Shown here piece by piece: positions 23,323 to 32,690 of a DNA stretch of 44,770 bases. Positions within the stretch are counted from its first letter, which is position 1; each line of letters begins with the position of its first letter. A program made the translations under genes and the position numbers. Source of the DNA: Pirellulales bacterium (GTDB taxonomy: Bacteria > Planctomycetota > Planctomycetia > Pirellulales > Thermoguttaceae); contig JAFGRD010000063.1 of assembly GCA_016935315.1 (NCBI GenBank), positions 1-44,770 of the forward strand. The letters are read 5' to 3'. The notes under the pieces were generated by a model, which saw only the letters and a program-made list of their open reading frames with translations, was not told the DNA's origin and made no database searches.

Positions 23323-23937
23323 ACGAAGCTGTGGCCGTGGTGGCGTGCATCTCGACGGGTGGCTCGGGCCGACGCCCCGGTACGCTGGCCAGCGGCGTCG
23401 GCAGAATCTGCGAGGGATTTGTGCGGGAACAAGCCGCGCGGCGCGCTGGAAGACGGTGCACGCAACGCTGGACCGAGGGGAACCGTCTTATTTTCTGTGC
23501 GCGAAGTGGCTGTTTGGCGAGTCGGCCCGCCCTTTGGATGCGAGCAGCGGATCTGCACTCGTTGCGGCGAGCTTCGTAGCACCCATCCGGGGCAAGTGTC
23601 TATGGCCGAGGACGCCGCAAGCGTGCCGTTCGATGGGTAAACACCGTTTGTACTTTCGCGCGGCCGTCTCGGGCACCCCTCTGCCGGCGGGGGCCGCGTG
23701 TCGGGCTTTGCACGGCAGGCGTTTTCCGGCACACTCCGCCTGCACGTTCTGCACAATCTCCTCACATCCCTTTGATCCCACCGCGAGCCACGCGACGACT
23801 CTTTTCGTAGCATTTGACCCGGCTATGACGGAACGTATTGTTACATAGGTGTGCCGCCTGTCGCAGACACATCGCCTCGGGAGGCAGTAACTTGCGAGAA
23901 GACGGCGGCCCAAGTCGTAGCGGCCAGGAAGACCATC
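23323..23937. other. 615-bp gene-free region before cheX
   Basis: Open frames of up to about 165 codons overlap on several frames with no ribosome sites or domains. It may contain further debris of the LRR gene. The cheX promoter lies at its end. Confidence 0.4.
23814..23841 (+). promoter_or_regulatory. Sigma70-like promoter of cheX
   Basis: TTGACC (23814-23819), 16-bp spacer, TATTGT (23836-23841), about 97 bp before the cheX start. Confidence 0.45.
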
Positions 23938-24414
23938 ATGCAAGCCGAATACATCAACCCGTTCATCACTTCGCTGGCCAACGCCTTCATGACCATGTTG
24001 GACTGTGAAGTCCGTCGCGGGCTCGTGAGCTTGAAGGACGGCAATTCCCCGGACTACGAAATCAGTGGGATCATCGGATTGTCCGGGAGGGCGGTCGGGA
24101 CGGTCGTCTTGAGTCTTTCGAAAGAGGTGGCCCTCAAGGCCGCTTCCACCTTGCTGATGTGTGAGACCTCCGAGGTCGACGCCGAGGTGATCGACGCCGT
24201 AGGGGAACTGACCAACATGGTGGCCGGCGCGGCCAAGTCGGAGTTGGAGGAATACGAGTTGGCGGTGAGTCTTCCCAACGTCGTGACCGGGCGGCACCAC
24301 GAAATTCGCTTTCCCTCCAACGTCACTCCCATTTGCGTGCCGTTTGAAACCGACTGGGGCGACTTGTCGCTGGAGGTCGGGTTCGCGCCCGCCCGCGTGC
24401 CGGTATCCACTTGA
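23938..24414 (+). CDS. cheX: CheX-like CheY-phosphatase family protein
   Basis: 158 residues from the ATG behind AGGAAG. It belongs to the CheC/CheX/FliY family. The phosphatase signature is seen once: AVGELTNMVAGAAKSEL, with E90 and N93 as the catalytic ExxN pair, preceded by ISGIIGLSGRAVGTVVLSLS. One motif, as in CheX (CheC has two). Such proteins dephosphorylate CheY-P. No cheA, cheY or receptor gene lies in the window; fliG is next, 152 bp downstream on the same strand. It may serve a response regulator other than CheY. Confidence 0.85.
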   Translation: MQAEYINPFITSLANAFMTMLDCEVRRGLVSLKDGNSPDYEISGIIGLSGRAVGTVVLSLSKEVALKAASTLLMCETSEVDAEVIDAVGELTNMVAGAAKSELEEYELAVSLPNVVTGRHHEIRFPSNVTPICVPFETDWGDLSLEVGFAPARVPVST

Positions 24415-24566
24415 CTTTCCGTACCGCTGCCATCGGGCGGCGAGTTGGACTCAAGTAGGTCAGCAACTTTGGCCGATATCGGGCCAACAAGTGCGCAGAC
24501 TGCGCAAACCTTTCCGGTTGGCAAGATTGCGAATATGCGCAGTTCAGGAAATCCGAGGGTGTCTCC

Positions 24567-25565
24567 ATGCCTGCCTCCGACGTTCGCAAAGCCGCTGTGC
24601 TGTTGATGAGCCTTGCGCCCCAGCAGGCCGCGCAACTGATGAGCAAACTCGCGCCGAAAGAGGTGGAAGCTGTCTCGATCGAGATCGCCAAGACGGGTGG
24701 GGTCGGCGGGGAGGAGCAGGAGTCCGTCATTCGAGAGTTTGCCGTGGCCAATCCGACCGCACTGACCGGCAGCGCCGGCGGTTTGGACGTTGCCAGAGCG
24801 CTGGTGGAACAGGCTTTGGGCAAGAGTGCTGGGGCCACACTCGACAACGTGCGTCAATCGATCGAGGCGTTGCCGTTCGGCTTCCTTCAGAAAGTCGACA
24901 GCCAGAACCTGCTGACCTTCATCATCGACGAACATCCCCAGACGATCGCCTTGATTCTCTCCCATGTGCCGCCTTCCCAGGCTGCCGACATCATCAGCGG
25001 GCTGCCGGCGGAACGCCAGTTGTCGGTGATCCGCCGGATAGCCACCATGGGGCAAACGAGCCCGGAGATCATCCACGAAGTGGAAAAGGGCCTGGAACGC
25101 CGCATGGCCGCGGTCATGAGCCAGCAGTTCGAGAACGCCGGCGGTGTGTCCAGCGTGGCCGAAATGCTCAACGTGATCGATCGGGCGACGGAACGGAGCC
25201 TGCTGGAGAACCTTGCCCAAGAAGACCCCGACCTGGTCGAGGAAATCCGCCGGTTGATGTTCGTTTTCGAGGACATCACCAAGCTCGCCGACCGCGACAT
25301 TCAGAACCTGTTGAAGAACGTGGAGAGTTCGCAATGGGCCATGGCGCTGAAGGGGGCCAGCGAGGAGTTGAAAGACAAGATCCTCAGCAATATGTCCAAA
25401 CGGGCTGCCGACCTGTTGCGCGAGGAAATGGAGTACCTCGGTCCGGTCCGGCTCTCCTCGGTCGAGCAGACCCAACAGCAGATTGTCGATATCGTCCGAC
25501 GCCTCGAAGATGCCGGCGAGATCACCACCCACGGCGAAGAGGAGGAAGAGCAGTTCATTCAATAG
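24567..25565 (+). CDS. fliG: Flagellar motor switch protein FliG
   Basis: 332 residues, start behind GAGGGTG. The N-terminal domain has RKAAVLLMSLAPQQAAQLMS; the middle domain has the hallmark EHPQTIALILSH (122-133) and HVPPSQAADIISGLP. The C-terminal domain has the torque helix region FEDITKLADRDIQNLLK (234-250) and AADLLREEMEYLGPVRL (280-296) with the charged residues that contact MotA. The length equals the family norm and the C-terminus is acidic (EEEEEQF). It forms part of the cytoplasmic C-ring. The protein looks intact, yet no other flagellar gene is in the window; the rest presumably lies elsewhere in the genome. Confidence 0.93.
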   Translation: MPASDVRKAAVLLMSLAPQQAAQLMSKLAPKEVEAVSIEIAKTGGVGGEEQESVIREFAVANPTALTGSAGGLDVARALVEQALGKSAGATLDNVRQSIEALPFGFLQKVDSQNLLTFIIDEHPQTIALILSHVPPSQAADIISGLPAERQLSVIRRIATMGQTSPEIIHEVEKGLERRMAAVMSQQFENAGGVSSVAEMLNVIDRATERSLLENLAQEDPDLVEEIRRLMFVFEDITKLADRDIQNLLKNVESSQWAMALKGASEELKDKILSNMSKRAADLLREEMEYLGPVRLSSVEQTQQQIVDIVRRLEDAGEITTHGEEEEEQFIQ

Positions 25566-25901: not shown

Positions 25902-28895
25902 ATGGCCAGTCTCCGAACTGATCCCGAGTTCTCTCGCCATCTATGGCTCGCACTGTTGCTGGGAGCGATCGTCTATGGTGGCTCGATGCTCTTTGGCCAG
26001 GGGGAAAGCCCCGCCTTGCCGGAAGAGAACGTGGTTGGGGTCCGCGTCGAAGGCAAGCTGAGCATGTCCGAAGCCGAGGTGATGCGCCATATCCACACTC
26101 GAGCCGGGCGACCCTTCGACCTGGAGATCGTCGAAGAAGACGTTCGCCGTCTGAACCGCACGGGGCTGTTCGTCAACGTCGAGACCTTCTCCCAGAAGGT
26201 GCAGGGCGGCCGGGTGGTCGTGTTTCGGCTGCTCGAACGTCCTGTTCTGAAGGAGATCCTGTTCGTCGGCAACAAGCAGATCAAGACCCGTGTCCTGAAG
26301 AAAGAAGCCGGTGTGCAGGTTGGCGACGCTTCGGACCCGTTCGCGGTCGAGGAGGGTCGTCGCCGCCTTGAGGAGTTCTATCAAGGCCGCGGTTTCAGCA
26401 AGGCTCGGGTGACCGTCAGCGAGGGCGCCAAGCCCGGCGAAAGGCGCGCCGTCTACCTGATCAACGAGGGTCGCAAGCAGCGAGTCCTTTGGACAGGATT
26501 CATCGGCAACACGATCGCCTCCGACGCTCGGCTGCGAACGCAGATCCAATCGAAGCCTCCCATTCTGTACGTTTTCAAGGGTGAGGTTGACAAGAAGCAG
26601 GTGGACGAGGACGTGAATCGGCTGACGGCCTACTATCGCAGCCTGGGATTCTTCAGCGCGCGGATCAGCCGAGAAATCGTGCCCAACAAGGACCAGACTT
26701 GGGCCACGATCACATTCGTCATCGACGAAGGGCCGCGCTACCGCGTCCAGGGCGTCTCATTTGTCGGCAATGGAAGGTTCTCTTCGGACGAATTGGGGGC
26801 GGAGCTGACCCTCAAAGACGGCCAACCCTTCAACCAGGACCAGATGAACAATGACGTGCGTGCAATCCAGGAGAAGTACGGCAGCATTGGCTACATCTTT
26901 GCCGACATTCAGGCGGACCCGCGATTCCTCGAAGAGCCCGGCGTGATCGATCTGGTCTACAACGTTGCCGAAGGCGACCGCTATCGTGTCGGTCGGATCA
27001 ACGTGCAGATCAAGGGAGAGTATCCCCACACCAAAATTACCACGGTGCTGAATCGCCTCTCGTTGAAGCCGGGCGACATTGTAGACGTCCGAAAACTCCG
27101 GGCCAGCGAGCGACGCCTGCGCGCCTCAGGGCTGTTCTTGAGCGATCCCGCCAGCGGCGCCCAGCCGAAGATCGTCTTCAACCCGCCCGAGTTGGACGAA
27201 GCAGAGACGGAGATCGCCCGGAAACCTCGGCCGAAGGTGCGCGGACAGAGCCCCGACCTGGTGCCGTGCGACGGCTGGAGGTGGGTTCCATCGGCCGATT
27301 CGCGACCGGGCGATCGGCGGGTGGACCTGGTGCTGCCTTGCCAGAGGGTCAGCCCCGGCTCGCCGCCACGGTTCGAGGATCCCGCCGAGTATCCGCCACA
27401 GACGCCCGGCAGTCGGCCCGGTCTGCAAACACCGCCATCGCCGCAGTTCCCGCCCGCAGCGTGGGCGACGCCCATGACTGGGCAAGGCCAGATGACAGTG
27501 CGAGGCCAAACGCCTCCGCAATCGGCTTGGCAGATGCCGCAGTATCCGCCAAGGCAAGCGTGGCCGAATGATCGCGCCCTGCCGCCGGGGACAACCGGCC
27601 AAACGTCGGCGAGTGGAGCCCTCCCCCCCTATCCCACGGCACCGAGCGGGATCGGCGCGGCGTCCACGGGATCGGCGCCGGCGTTCGCCGCGCCGGTCCA
27701 GCCCCATGCCCGTATGGCTGCCGTTCCCACGCCGCTGGCGGATCGGGAGGGCATCTTCAGTGAAGACTCCCCGTTCTTCGGCGGGGCCGCTGACGGCGAT
27801 TTCACGCGCCCGTTGCCGCTGGACGTGATCGCCCAGGAGACGCAGACCGGCCGGCTGATGTTCGGGGTGGGCGTAAACTCCGACGCCGGCCTGGTGGGGT
27901 CGGTAGTGATCGACGAGCAGAACTTCGATTGGACGCGGTTCCCCAACAGTTGGGAGGACGTCCGCAATGCCACCGCATGGCGTGGCGCCGGGCAGCGGTT
28001 CCGCCTCGAGTTGGTGCCGGGGACGCTGGTCCAACGCTACACGGTCAATTTCCAGGAACCTTACTTGATGGACACGGCCGTCGGCCTGGGGCTGAGCGGC
28101 TACTACTACGATCGCCGCTACACGGAATGGGACGAGCAGCGCCTGGGAGGTTCCGTGAGGCTCGGATACAGCATCACCCATGATCTTTCGGGAGCTTTCA
28201 CGTTCCGCGGCGCGAAAATCAACATCCACGATCCGATCGTGCCGGTCGGCAGCGGACTGACGGAACTCGATGAGGTCGTGGGGGACAACGCGCTTTACGG
28301 GTTCGGCGTCAACATGACCCACGACACGCGCGACAACGCCTTCCTGGCCACGCAGGGGCATCTGTTCGAGGTGTCGCTCGAGCAGGTCCTGGGCTCGTTT
28401 GAATACCCGCGGGTCGATGTGGACCTTCGCCGCTACTTCCTCATCCACGAACGGCCCGACGGCTCCGGACGCCACGTGCTGAGCCTCTCGGCCCGATTCG
28501 GCTACACGGGCGACAACACGCCCATCTACGATCACTACTACGCCGGCGGGTTCACCACGTTGCGCGGGTTCGATTTCCGAGGGGCCTCGCCTCGCGACCC
28601 CGTCTTCAACGTGGCCCTTGGCGGCCACTTCCTGCTGCTGGGCAAGATCCAGTACCTCTTCCCGATCACGGCCGACGATATGTTGCGCGCAGTGGTCTTC
28701 TGCGACACGGGCACGGTGGAGCCGTTTATCGACGACTGGACTGACAAGTACCGTGTGGCCCCGGGATTCGGCCTGCGTATCACCGTGCCCGCCATGGGCC
28801 CCGCGCCGATCGCACTCGACTTCGCTTTCCCGATCAGCACGCAAGCGGGCGACCGCGAGGAGGTCTTCAGCTTCTTCGTGGGCTTCAACTACTGA
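25902..28895 (+). CDS. bamA: BamA/Omp85 outer-membrane assembly protein with long linker insert
   Basis: 997 residues, against about 810 in E. coli. An N-terminal hydrophobic segment (12-31) acts as signal or anchor. Five POTRA-like domains: about 43-112, 113-189, 192-277, 280-356 and 360-480. The fifth is interrupted near 428-470 before its last strand (DRRVDLVLPCQ). Residues about 482-640 form a low-complexity Pro/Gln/Ala/Thr-rich insert. The 16-strand barrel runs from about 645 to the C-terminal aromatic signal FFVGFNY and includes GFTTLRGFDFRGASP, the conserved RGF lid-lock motif. It folds and inserts outer-membrane proteins, implying a diderm envelope. Cysteines C456 and C480 flank the fifth-POTRA interruption. 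It converges with htrA, a protease of envelope quality control. Confidence 0.93.
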   Translation: MASLRTDPEFSRHLWLALLLGAIVYGGSMLFGQGESPALPEENVVGVRVEGKLSMSEAEVMRHIHTRAGRPFDLEIVEEDVRRLNRTGLFVNVETFSQKVQGGRVVVFRLLERPVLKEILFVGNKQIKTRVLKKEAGVQVGDASDPFAVEEGRRRLEEFYQGRGFSKARVTVSEGAKPGERRAVYLINEGRKQRVLWTGFIGNTIASDARLRTQIQSKPPILYVFKGEVDKKQVDEDVNRLTAYYRSLGFFSARISREIVPNKDQTWATITFVIDEGPRYRVQGVSFVGNGRFSSDELGAELTLKDGQPFNQDQMNNDVRAIQEKYGSIGYIFADIQADPRFLEEPGVIDLVYNVAEGDRYRVGRINVQIKGEYPHTKITTVLNRLSLKPGDIVDVRKLRASERRLRASGLFLSDPASGAQPKIVFNPPELDEAETEIARKPRPKVRGQSPDLVPCDGWRWVPSADSRPGDRRVDLVLPCQRVSPGSPPRFEDPAEYPPQTPGSRPGLQTPPSPQFPPAAWATPMTGQGQMTVRGQTPPQSAWQMPQYPPRQAWPNDRALPPGTTGQTSASGALPPYPTAPSGIGAASTGSAPAFAAPVQPHARMAAVPTPLADREGIFSEDSPFFGGAADGDFTRPLPLDVIAQETQTGRLMFGVGVNSDAGLVGSVVIDEQNFDWTRFPNSWEDVRNATAWRGAGQRFRLELVPGTLVQRYTVNFQEPYLMDTAVGLGLSGYYYDRRYTEWDEQRLGGSVRLGYSITHDLSGAFTFRGAKINIHDPIVPVGSGLTELDEVVGDNALYGFGVNMTHDTRDNAFLATQGHLFEVSLEQVLGSFEYPRVDVDLRRYFLIHERPDGSGRHVLSLSARFGYTGDNTPIYDHYYAGGFTTLRGFDFRGASPRDPVFNVALGGHFLLLGKIQYLFPITADDMLRAVVFCDTGTVEPFIDDWTDKYRVAPGFGLRITVPAMGPAPIALDFAFPISTQAGDREEVFSFFVGFNY

Positions 28896-28927: not shown

Positions 28928-30457
28928 TCAGGAACTCTGCAGCACGAGAAACACGTTTCCGTCGGGGGTGCGGACGTTCAGTAAAATGCCGTCTCGCAGC
29001 GACTTGCCCTTCAGGGCGGCTTCGAACTCGGCCACCGACGCGACCGGCTTCTGCTCCACGCTACGGATCAACATACCGGCCGAGAGGCCCGCTGAGGCCG
29101 CAATCCCGTCCGGGTCCACCCCGGTAATCAGCACGCCGGAGAAACCCTCCAGGTCGAGTTGCTGTGCGACCTGAGCGGTCAGCTCGCCGACCTCCAAACC
29201 GAGGTCCTCGCTGGTGAACGTTGGGCCGACGCTGCCTCCACGAGGACGGGCGCGCGGTGTCACCGAGGCGACGCCGAAGTCGCCGGGCAGCGGTTTGACC
29301 ACGACGGTCAGCTTGGTCGGTTTGCGGTTTCGGAGGATATCGACGGTCTGCTTCGATCCCGCGGCCGACCGCTCCACGACCTGCTGCAGGCCGCGCGGAT
29401 CGTTGACCGGCTGGCCGGCGAAAGCAAGGATCACGTCGCCTTCCGCAAATCCGGCCGCGGCCGCCGGGGTGTCGGGATAGACGTCCATGACCAGAACCCC
29501 CTTGTTCGGGGGTACGCCGAATTTGCCAGCTAGTTGGGCATCCATCTCGGCGATCTTCACTCCCAAATAGGCCCGCTCGACCTTGCCGCTTTGGACCAGT
29601 TGTCCGGTGACCCATTTGGCGAGATTCACGGGGATGGCAAACCCGACACCTTGGTAGCCGCCGTTGCTGGAGGCGATGGCCGTGTTGATTCCGACCACCT
29701 GGCCGTCGAGATTGACCAACGGGCCCCCGGAGTTGCCGGGGTTGATCATCGCGTCGGTCTGGAGGAAATTCGCCCGCTTCCCGGTCCTCAGGGCACGGCC
29801 CTTGCTACTGATGATTCCCGCGCTGACGGTCCCTTCGAGTTCGAACGGATTGCCGACGGCCAGCACCCAGTCGCCGATTTCCAGGCTGTCGGAATCGCCC
29901 ATAGCCGCCGCCGGCAAGGGTTCGTCGGCGCTGATGCGAACGACCGCCAGGTCCGTCTGCTCATCGCTCTTGACGTCGACGGCCTTGAATTGGCGCCCGT
30001 CGGACAATTCCACGGCGATCTCGTCGGCGCCCTCGACCACGTGGTTGTTTGTCAGAATGATGCCGGCCGGGTCGATAATCACGCCCGAGCCAAGTCCTTC
30101 GCGTTGCGGTATCCCGGGGTGATAGCGGAAGAAATCTGGCATGCCGGGTTCGTCGAAGAAGTCCTCCCAGGGGGTGCCCTGGAAGGGATTCTCGCGTTGG
30201 CGGTTTCCCTCCGGCATCTCGACGCGCCGCGACTTGACCGTGGTCTTAACGCTCACGACCGTGGGAAGGACCTTCTTGGCGGCCGCCCGGAACGCCCGAG
30301 AGAGGCTTCTCGCCTGGGCCGCTGCGCCGGAGTCTCCGGCTGACGCCGGCTCCTGCCCTCCCGCTGCCTGCCAGAAAACACTGGTGAAGATGACCGTCAG
30401 GGCCAAAGCCCCTGCCGCCATCCAAGGCCTACCACGATATTGGTCTTTTCGATGCAT
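28928..30457 (-). CDS. HtrA/Deg-family periplasmic serine protease
   Basis: 509 residues from the ATG behind AAGGAGG; a longer frame upstream has no such site. A hydrophobic segment (13-31) is a signal or membrane anchor. The trypsin-like domain has H139 (TNNHVVEG), D169 (TDLAVV) and S243 (INPGNSGGPL). There are two PDZ domains, about 295-390 and 415-505. It matches the Do/DegQ/MucD pattern: ATP-independent degradation or chaperoning of misfolded periplasmic proteins. A Q-linker-like charged segment (about 78-118) precedes the catalytic core, as in the LA loop of DegP. It is convergent with bamA with only 32 bp between stop codons. Confidence 0.95.
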   Translation of the reverse strand: MHRKDQYRGRPWMAAGALALTVIFTSVFWQAAGGQEPASAGDSGAAAQARSLSRAFRAAAKKVLPTVVSVKTTVKSRRVEMPEGNRQRENPFQGTPWEDFFDEPGMPDFFRYHPGIPQREGLGSGVIIDPAGIILTNNHVVEGADEIAVELSDGRQFKAVDVKSDEQTDLAVVRISADEPLPAAAMGDSDSLEIGDWVLAVGNPFELEGTVSAGIISSKGRALRTGKRANFLQTDAMINPGNSGGPLVNLDGQVVGINTAIASSNGGYQGVGFAIPVNLAKWVTGQLVQSGKVERAYLGVKIAEMDAQLAGKFGVPPNKGVLVMDVYPDTPAAAAGFAEGDVILAFAGQPVNDPRGLQQVVERSAAGSKQTVDILRNRKPTKLTVVVKPLPGDFGVASVTPRARPRGGSVGPTFTSEDLGLEVGELTAQVAQQLDLEGFSGVLITGVDPDGIAASAGLSAGMLIRSVEQKPVASVAEFEAALKGKSLRDGILLNVRTPDGNVFLVLQSS

Positions 30458-30550
30458 TCGCGAATCCTCCTTCTGCCGATTGACTGACGCTGCCCAAACC
30501 AGAGCACCTTGTCCAATGGAAGCCCGCAAGAGGCCCTGCCTCGCCACGTT

Positions 30551-30579
30551 CATCTAGGGCTTGTTTCCCACCCGACCAA
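30551..30579 (-). promoter_or_regulatory. Possible htrA promoter
   Basis: On the minus strand TTGGTC (30579-30574), 17-bp spacer, TAGATG (30556-30551). Reasonable spacing, moderate match, 94 bp before the htrA start. Confidence 0.35.
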
Positions 30580-31580: not shown

Positions 31581-31684
31581 TATGGACGCTTGCACAGTCA
31601 AAGCGCGAAGGCGACCAACGGGAGCCCGATTTTTTTCCGGCCTCCCGTCGGTCGGCCTTGATCATTCGCAATGCAAACATCAAT
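31581..31684 (+). repeat. Dispersed repeat family A, copy A3
   Basis: GGACGCTTGCACAGTCAAAG, then CCAACGGGAGCCCGATTTTT, and the tail CTTGATCATTCGCAATGCAA. It matches A1 over its full length. The right hairpin arm is changed to CCGTCGG (31645-31651). Its last bases, ACATCAAT, run into the start codon of the downstream PP-loop gene. Confidence 0.8.
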
Positions 31685-32690
31685 GATGCCTTGTGCCGTT
31701 GCCCTGTTTTCCGGCGGTCTGGATAGCATGCTGTCCGTTCGCATCATGCAAGCGCAAGGGTACGTGGTCGAGGCATTGAACATTCGCACGATCTTCAGTT
31801 GTTGCCGGGCGAGAGCGGCGCAGGCCGCAGCCACGCTGGGCGCCCGCCTGACGGTCATGGCCGTCGGCGACGACTATCTGGACGTGGTCCGCAACCCCTT
31901 GTACGGATATGGGAAAGGGGTCAACCCGTGTGTCGACTGTCGCATCTACATGTGCCGCATGGCCGCCCGATTCATGGAAGAGGTCCAGGCTTCCGTGGTG
32001 GTCACGGGCGAGATCGTGGGGCAGCGGCCGATGAGCCAGAAGCGACACCAACTTGATTTGATCGCGCGCCGTTCGGGGCTGGACGGGCGGCTACTGCGCC
32101 CGCTCTCTGCCAGACTACTTGCTCCCACGATCCCGGAAATCGAGCAGGCGGTTGATCGGGAGAAGCTGTACAGTTTCAGCAATCGCGGCCGAAGCGGATT
32201 AATCGAGTTGGCCGAGCGACTGGGAATCTCCAAACGGGGAATCGACAGGATTCCGTCGCCGTCGTCCGGATGCGCGCTGACCGAACCTCTGTTCGCAACT
32301 CGCGTGCGCGATCTAATGCAGCAACATCCCGACGCGGCACGCTGGGACTTCGAACTGTTGAATCACGGCAGGCACTTTCGCTTCGATCGGCAAACGAAAA
32401 TCGTCGTGGGACGCAATGCCGAGGAAAACGCCACGCTTCGGTTGATGGCCGAGCGGGCAGACGCACCGGAGCCGGTTCTCCTGGTGCCGGAGACTTTTCC
32501 CGGGCCCCATGCGCTGATCGTGGGAGAGGCGGCCGACCCACGCGTGCTGCGGTTTGCCGGAGCGTTGATATTACGCTACGCCAGCCATCCCTCTCCAGAT
32601 TGCCCTCAGGTCCGCCTAAGCGCGCGAGGTGCCGACCGTACCATCGCCATCCAACCCGACCCGACCGCCCAATCGGCCGCGACTCTCTGA
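31683..32690 (+). CDS. PP-loop tRNA-thiolation-like enzyme fused to an NFACT-R-like domain
   Basis: 335 residues from ATG 31683. An in-frame ATG at 31671 lies inside repeat A3, and ATG 31686 is equally possible. The ATP-pyrophosphatase loop is SGGLDS (10-15). A Cys pair NPCVDC (81-86) and a later Cys in SPSSGCALT (C197) resemble the two catalytic cysteines of thiouridylases such as MnmA and ThiI. The C-terminal part (about 219-320), with LNHGRHFRFDRQTKIVVGRN and ENATL, resembles the NFACT-R RNA-binding domain. Probably a tRNA sulfur-transfer enzyme; the modified base is unknown. It is not MnmA itself. A perfect hairpin terminator follows at 32721. Confidence 0.78.
   Translation: MMPCAVALFSGGLDSMLSVRIMQAQGYVVEALNIRTIFSCCRARAAQAAATLGARLTVMAVGDDYLDVVRNPLYGYGKGVNPCVDCRIYMCRMAARFMEEVQASVVVTGEIVGQRPMSQKRHQLDLIARRSGLDGRLLRPLSARLLAPTIPEIEQAVDREKLYSFSNRGRSGLIELAERLGISKRGIDRIPSPSSGCALTEPLFATRVRDLMQQHPDAARWDFELLNHGRHFRFDRQTKIVVGRNAEENATLRLMAERADAPEPVLLVPETFPGPHALIVGEAADPRVLRFAGALILRYASHPSPDCPQVRLSARGADRTIAIQPDPTAQSAATL

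Follow-up and report, generated by a model that had tools for sequence, protein, structure and literature searches.

The 997-residue BamA of a Pirellulales bacterium (assembly GCA_016935315.1), encoded on the forward strand of the 44,770-nucleotide stretch JAFGRD010000063.1 (hereafter the window), carries a long, mostly disordered insert. Homology, supported by a structure model, places this insert in the loop between strands beta2 and beta3 of the fifth POTRA domain (POTRA5). Comparison with related loci shows that within the Pirellulales bamA is often broken in this same loop, into two genes (a split bamA, as opposed to the fused, one-frame form of the window) whose products are predicted to be separately exported. 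We consider it fairly likely that the two halves meet by strand complementation within POTRA5, assisted by a short RGQ motif. By itself the window insert is a modest variant of BamA; its loop is most likely the one-chain counterpart of a two-chain BamA in which POTRA5 is completed in trans.

The features of the gene are as follows.

25902–28895, forward strand: bamA coding sequence, 997 residues (open reading frame, translation, TIGR03303 match above the cut-off)
26037–26975, forward strand: POTRA 1–4 (PF07244 matches at 26037–26192, 26244–26471, 26499–26732 and 26739–26975)
26979–27176, forward strand: N-terminal part of POTRA5, with beta1 (residues 360–371), alpha1 (379–384), alpha2 (396–408) and beta2 (423–425) (AlphaFold2 model; partial Pfam POTRA match)
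27210–27803, forward strand: insert in the predicted POTRA5 beta2–beta3 loop (residues 437–634), about 198 residues, proline-rich and mostly disordered (composition; model confidence; missing from insert-free relatives)
27237–27257, forward strand: first RGQ motif, VRGQSPD (residues 446–452; pattern [VIFYTL]R[GA]Q)
27267–27341, forward strand: stretch from C456 to C480, an unconserved cysteine pair, with the beta3-like element RRVDLVLPC (27315–27341, residues 472–480; beta3-like pattern)
27498–27518, forward strand: second RGQ motif, VRGQTPP (residues 533–539; same pattern)
27804–27839, forward strand: predicted POTRA5 beta3 (residues 635–646), continuous with the barrel (AlphaFold2 strand; columns common to insert-free relatives)
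27849–28892, forward strand: Omp85/BamA beta-barrel (residues 650–997) (PF01103; structure alignment to 7nre_A)

The product is identified as BamA by the NCBIfam equivalog profile TIGR03303, which it matches with 367.7 bits (E 1.2e-109) against a cut-off of 297.15. Pfam finds five POTRA stretches (PF07244) and one Omp85 barrel (PF01103, E 7e-45). The fifth POTRA misses the E 0.001 significance level of the genome search and is not listed there; searched alone, it scores 21.7 bits against the Pfam cut-off of 21.3. PF01103 is matched in the window's genome by the bamA product alone, which fits a role in outer-membrane protein insertion, and an essential one.

Location of the insert within POTRA5

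The comparison set consisted of 12 insert-free BamAs, six from families f23–f26 of the same class and six from elsewhere in the phylum, in which the gap between the POTRA and barrel matches is −8 to 51 residues. Insert-free relatives lack residues about 437–641 of the window protein; an alignment with such rows, for example G161, passes directly from window residue 435 to 642. When a profile was made of 27 insert-free BamAs, the window protein matched it in two pieces, at positions 3–77 and 97–141 of 143; beta3 was put at profile positions about 90–98 from the consensus. The 79-position Pfam POTRA profile is covered only from 5 to 53 by the window POTRA5 and from 5 to 45 by a split half, and from 1 to 79 and 2 to 79 by two insert-free relatives. 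In families f21 and f22 of the class (7 BamAs), 95–235 residues separate the POTRA and barrel matches, and this intervening stretch stops just before a beta3-like segment.

The columns immediately before the barrel carry a recurring pattern in fused, split, class and insert-free sequences. Column −7 is Asp, Asn or Pro (61/69 fused, there Asp or Pro, 38/38 split, 16/16 class and 12/12 insert-free), column −6 is hydrophobic in 92–100% and column −4 in 62–100% of each of the four groups. Column −2 is weaker, being hydrophobic in 48–62% of the insert-bearing groups and in 100% of the insert-free one.

The AlphaFold2 model of the window BamA, built with 47 relatives, has a mean predicted local distance difference test (pLDDT) score of 74 and a predicted template modelling score (pTM) of 0.60. 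It gives beta1, alpha1, alpha2 and beta2 in the order listed above, then disorder (pLDDT under 50 at residues 439–464, 466–469 and 471–617), then the strand at 635–646 (block pLDDT 83 and 88) and barrel strand 1 from residue 650. VIA-align superposes the model on the E. coli BamA barrel 7nre_A with Z 28.2, over 315 residues at 3.4 Å. In the structure alignments, model residue 42 falls on E. coli residue 24 (7nri_A) and residue 649 on 423 (7nre_A), so that about 208 residues have been added in between. The passage from the last POTRA5 strand into the barrel is continuous, as judged from the modelled strands 635–646 and 650–659 and from the column pattern, and POTRA5 itself is not contiguous in sequence. 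Such an interruption is a variant trait; the TIGR03303 family profile does not demand contiguity. Since beta3 is joined to the barrel, POTRA5 could fold from two parts of the sequence, and the POTRA5–barrel joint stays short.

An earlier note on this DNA had described a Pro/Gln-rich, low-complexity insert and an interrupted POTRA5, and both observations hold. Residues 437–634 contain 39 prolines (19.7%, versus 4.9% in the remainder of the protein) and 53 Pro plus Gln, where the maximum for any 198-residue stretch in 1000 shuffled proteins was 44. Its bounds needed revision: the start moves from about 482 to about 437, and the end falls before strand 635–646, now assigned to POTRA5 beta3. The insert was said to lie between POTRA5 and the barrel; the insert-free relatives and the model instead indicate that it loops out inside POTRA5, between beta2 and beta3. 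The suggested loosening of the POTRA5–barrel coupling finds no support, as beta3 stays continuous with the barrel and the joint is kept. The suggestion that the insert binds another envelope component may still hold, given that most fused inserts keep a short motif (see below).

The insert might nevertheless be a flexible spacer that separates POTRA5 from the barrel, loosening their coupling or lengthening the reach across a wide periplasm. In favour of this reading, the insert is long, disordered and proline-rich, and the POTRA5–barrel hinge must stay flexible for coupling according to the introduction of a 2026 paper (PMC13382580). We regard it as improbable, since both insert ends lie within POTRA5, every one of the four groups has the beta3 pattern next to the barrel, most split barrel halves carry beta3 by profile, and the loop can grow without making the joint any longer.

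C456 and C480 lie at the positions given in the earlier note, and they are not a conserved pair. Among 28 picked fused sequences, the stretch contains no cysteine in 17, one in 6, two in 4 and three in 1, and the window and L006 are the only ones in which two cysteines occupy matching positions. A C456–C480 disulfide as a conserved clasp was dropped on this ground.

All 69 fused Pirellulales rows measured, window included, have an insert of 101–490 residues at the POTRA5 site. The insert is thus not absent from the relatives, and that of the window is not a one-genome assembly error. An assembly error or a pseudogene was dropped as an explanation in view of this recurrence together with low ratios of non-synonymous to synonymous substitution rates (dN/dS) and, mostly, no second copy.

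Split bamA genes in the Pirellulales

In 38 of 135 distinct BamA loci a POTRA1–5 gene is followed by a separate beta3-barrel gene, and the other 97 are fused; this sample is uneven, with some loci chosen partly for looking split, so that 38/135 is not a rate. The 135 remained from 180 loci once identical barrels had been removed, together with loci of which one half was missing at the end of a contig, barrels shorter than 330 residues and halves more than 2500 bases apart; near-copies remain among them. Assigned on kinship code or tree position, 107 loci (69 fused and 38 split) belong to the window's order, and the 28 loci outside it are all fused. Among the first 30 genomes searched (the window's own included), 21 had a one-frame BamA, 5 had a POTRA frame next to a barrel frame and 4 were unclassed; the resulting 5/26 is the least biased split figure and refers to near relatives only. 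The 80 named loci comprise 54 fused, 21 split and 5 partial ones. Split genes are also present in single-contig genomes (G106, G122 and G096). Two fused loci from metagenome-assembled genomes (MAGs) titled Kuenenia were kept as rows, the title not being relied on. The titles of L096, L159 and L163 (Candidatus Nealsonbacteria, Candidatus Kuenenia) do not match their Pirellulales-like BamA, and these are probably misnamed MAGs.

Of the 11 split genomes scanned, 10 contain a single PF01103 barrel, encoded by a short frame that lacks POTRA; the exception, G041 (contamination 6), has two barrels, both in short frames. In 5 of the 11 the match of the last POTRA stops early, at profile position 45, 54 or 62, and partial matches occur at other POTRAs too. 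Some additional BamA matches were seen. G165, G169 and G212 give a weak extra match to the barrel start (residues about 645–677) in other frames of 1123–1135 residues, and BamA matches outside the class (G262:C243, G255:C190, G267:C307 and G252:C2) lie in long frames of 1263–1588 residues from stop to stop.

The upstream split gene encodes POTRA1–5 up to beta2, plus a tail. The downstream gene encodes, in order, a hydrophobic export signal, mostly an RGQ-type motif, a proline-rich stretch, beta3 and the barrel. On the insert-free profile, 30/38 upstream (N) halves end at positions 76–84, and all 38 downstream (C) halves begin at 87–100, 34 of them at 95 or less, which places beta3 on the barrel half. 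POTRA and barrel occupy separate frames with separate export signals at all 38 loci (the signal of L114 being unclear), the window itself not being split. Read by eye, the downstream signals are lipobox-like (xGC) in 28/38 and resemble an ordinary signal peptide in 9/38, with L114 again unclear; a cruder script pattern, which made some wrong picks, gave 26 with and 12 without a lipobox. Stop and start overlap by 4 bases in 7/38 loci (start codons picked by script), and in L106 a GGAGG stands ahead of the ATGA overlap. A frameshift or read-through joining the two frames was dropped as an explanation in view of the downstream genes' own export signals and these 7 overlaps.

In nine close split pairs, dN/dS was 0.08–0.40 for the upstream tail, 0.06–0.33 for the downstream start (one pair not computable; this frame can include bases ahead of the true start) and 0.01–0.07 for the barrel. 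Both halves are under purifying selection, and they look like working genes. A 135-row FastTree tree implies 6 fused/split changes, of which the starred branches force at least 3 (several long branches were flagged), and a 68-row IQ-TREE tree of picked rows implies 4, with at least 3 forced. A single clade of all 27 split rows was rejected on the 68-row tree (approximately unbiased test, p 0.00074), and on the 135-row tree one split clade of six rows falls among members of f1, the family of the window. On the present trees, it appears that the loop broke more than once or that some lineages rejoined; either way the breakpoint is a repeated one.

It could be argued that the insert is a neutral low-complexity expansion and that the splits arose by neutral fission of a loop that tolerates it, as inserts measure anywhere from 101 to 490 residues and large differences are seen in the nearest relatives of the window. 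The low dN/dS beside the break and the retention of the RGQ motif in most inserts, and on both halves of most splits, make this distinctly unlikely; even neutral fission would not exclude assembly of POTRA5 in trans.

Proposed assembly of POTRA5 from two parts

The motif [VIFYTL]R[GA]Q is found in 60/69 fused inserts (shuffled mean 3.3) and, with L239 left out, in 32/37 split upstream tails (shuffled mean 0.7) and 29/37 split downstream starts (shuffled mean 1.6). It has no structure in the AlphaFold2 model, and we read it as a putative docking peptide used by each half. A codon-pattern scan of the window's genome, which misses AGR arginine codons, gave 9 hits, compared with 5 for a read-backwards control; by eye only the two hits in bamA lie in a real gene, and the possibility that the motif is shared with other envelope proteins was dropped.

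We suggest that the split halves most likely meet in the periplasm, where beta3 of the barrel protein would complete POTRA5 of the other protein, so that POTRA5 would clasp the two chains of BamA together. The RGQ motif that both halves carry and the N-terminal anchor of the barrel protein would help them meet, and the lipid anchor predicted for most barrel proteins would hold the barrel protein at the membrane near the clasp. In the window the loop would tether both parts; its two motif copies probably dock to a common site, although this last step is more tentative.

The split pair L154 was also modelled, as one chain read through its stop (31 rows, mean pLDDT 71.5, pTM 0.55). AlphaFold2 returned a BamA fold with beta1-alpha1-alpha2-beta2, disorder, and then a strand ahead of the barrel. 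POTRA3–5 and the barrel superpose on E. coli BamA 7ye4_A over 550 residues at 5.2 Å, and the root mean square deviation of whole-length superpositions is about 11–22 Å, probably as a result of the first POTRAs pointing elsewhere. Being a single chain, this model is no proof of association in trans.

Pairing in trans is presumed, as is that of beta3 (635–646) with the POTRA5 sheet of the window protein, and several observations weigh against strand complementation. The window's own match to the insert-free profile begins at 97, beyond most of beta3, and in a profile search of solved BamAs its beta3 stretch aligned at only 2.8 bits. In addition, 8/38 split N halves match the insert-free profile on to 99–111, across the beta3 positions, and a beta3-like element occurs in 36/69 fused inserts (shuffled mean 4.8) and 8/38 split N tails (shuffled mean 0.8). 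In the window this element (residues 472–480) comes after the first RGQ motif.

The last two observations would suit a POTRA5 completed in cis by the beta3-like element of the POTRA half, leaving the pre-barrel strand free for something else. However, the pattern is missing from 30/38 split N tails, and the pre-barrel strand recurs in all groups, insert-free BamAs included. The model has pLDDT under 50 throughout 471–617, and in L154, one of the 8 run-on N halves, AlphaFold2 turns the profile-matched tail into a helix. The 8 N halves that run over beta3 have nevertheless led us to lower our estimate for strand complementation to the fairly likely level given above and to raise that for completion in cis, which we still hold unlikely. 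For the same reason we lowered to an even chance the broader proposal that, in whole lineages of Planctomycetota, the core subunit of the beta-barrel assembly machinery (BAM) is a natural two-chain protein. It would consist of an exported POTRA array and a mostly lipid-anchored barrel completing POTRA5 in trans, with POTRA arrays whose docking or exchange could be independent of the barrel, the window BamA being the tethered form.

The RGQ motif might also be a protease site at which fused BamA, once exported, is cleaved into two chains. The natural fission of the gene shows that a two-chain form can be functional, and an HtrA-type protease gene adjoins bamA in the window, but both halves retain the motif in most proteins that are already split and need no cut; we therefore consider this very improbable. 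BamD-like tetratricopeptide repeat (TPR) proteins were tried as an explanation of the insert and dropped, since they match in fused, split and insert-free genomes alike (10/10 genomes at E 1e-5, above the family cut-off in 7; TPR repeats make this search noisy). The matching frames (G000:C50:929-1756 and counterparts) are roughly 300–520 residues long in several of the 10 genomes; E. coli BamD is shorter than this.

The neighbouring genes are as follows. Convergent with bamA is an HtrA/DegP-type protease with trypsin-like and PDZ domains (28928–30553, reverse strand), a type that handles misfolded outer-membrane proteins in E. coli. CheX-like and FliG genes (23851–25565, forward strand) lie directly upstream, and 31671–32690 (forward strand) encodes a protein in which a ThiI-like part is combined with an NFACT RNA-binding one.

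Significance and comparison with known systems

BamA is essential in model bacteria and is treated as one chain, its POTRA ring moving with the barrel through POTRA5. The separately exported halves of related bacteria suggest that its two functional parts do not have to belong to a single chain. Lineages whose bamA is interrupted within POTRA5 offer natural separation-of-function material. Should the two products act together, the protein can do without covalent continuity at precisely this point, and the question of POTRA–barrel coupling becomes testable. There is also a consequence for annotation, as a split bamA could be mistaken for a damaged gene or for a POTRA-less barrel.

Speth et al. 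2012 (PMC3422733) reported a BamA BLAST hit for the planctomycetes sequenced by then, including Rhodopirellula baltica, and the available part of that paper mentions no split. The accessible portions of a study of the last bacterial common ancestor (PMC8871954) and of a 2026 BAM review (PMC13067283) are likewise silent on split BamA, the latter not mentioning planctomycetes. Four E. coli–Neisseria BamA chimeras, with the joint either behind POTRA5 or inside the barrel, were non-functional according to the excerpts available from PMC3869937, which implies that the POTRA and barrel parts have to be matched to one another. The literature searched, which had partial coverage, most subscription journals lying outside it, yielded no report of a two-gene BamA. 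Within the limits of these searches, the recurrent natural fission of BamA inside POTRA5 has not been described before.

Like E. coli and other solved BamAs, the window protein has a POTRA array and an Omp85 barrel, with a best superposition of Z about 28; unlike them it has a POTRA5 beta2–beta3 loop that is longer by about 200 residues, most of them disordered, and many of its relatives have two genes. The insert-free BamAs of the same class (f23–f26) share its family and domain order but have no insert, a break-free junction and stop-to-stop frames of 793–880 residues. Omp85 proteins without POTRA domains are a recognized grouping, and a split barrel half taken alone resembles one; it differs in keeping POTRA5 beta3 and adjoining a POTRA-only gene, and 10 of the 11 genomes have no other barrel. 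Artificial split proteins can be rejoined by strand complementation, and the proposed split BamA would similarly form one domain from two chains, although here the protein is natural, a membrane insertase, and its pairing is one that we infer. Two-partner (type Vb) secretion is likewise an Omp85 system of two adjacent genes, and the only one for which the available part of PMC6604945 mentions two genes; its second gene, however, encodes a secreted passenger, whereas the two split bamA genes encode both parts of one BamA.

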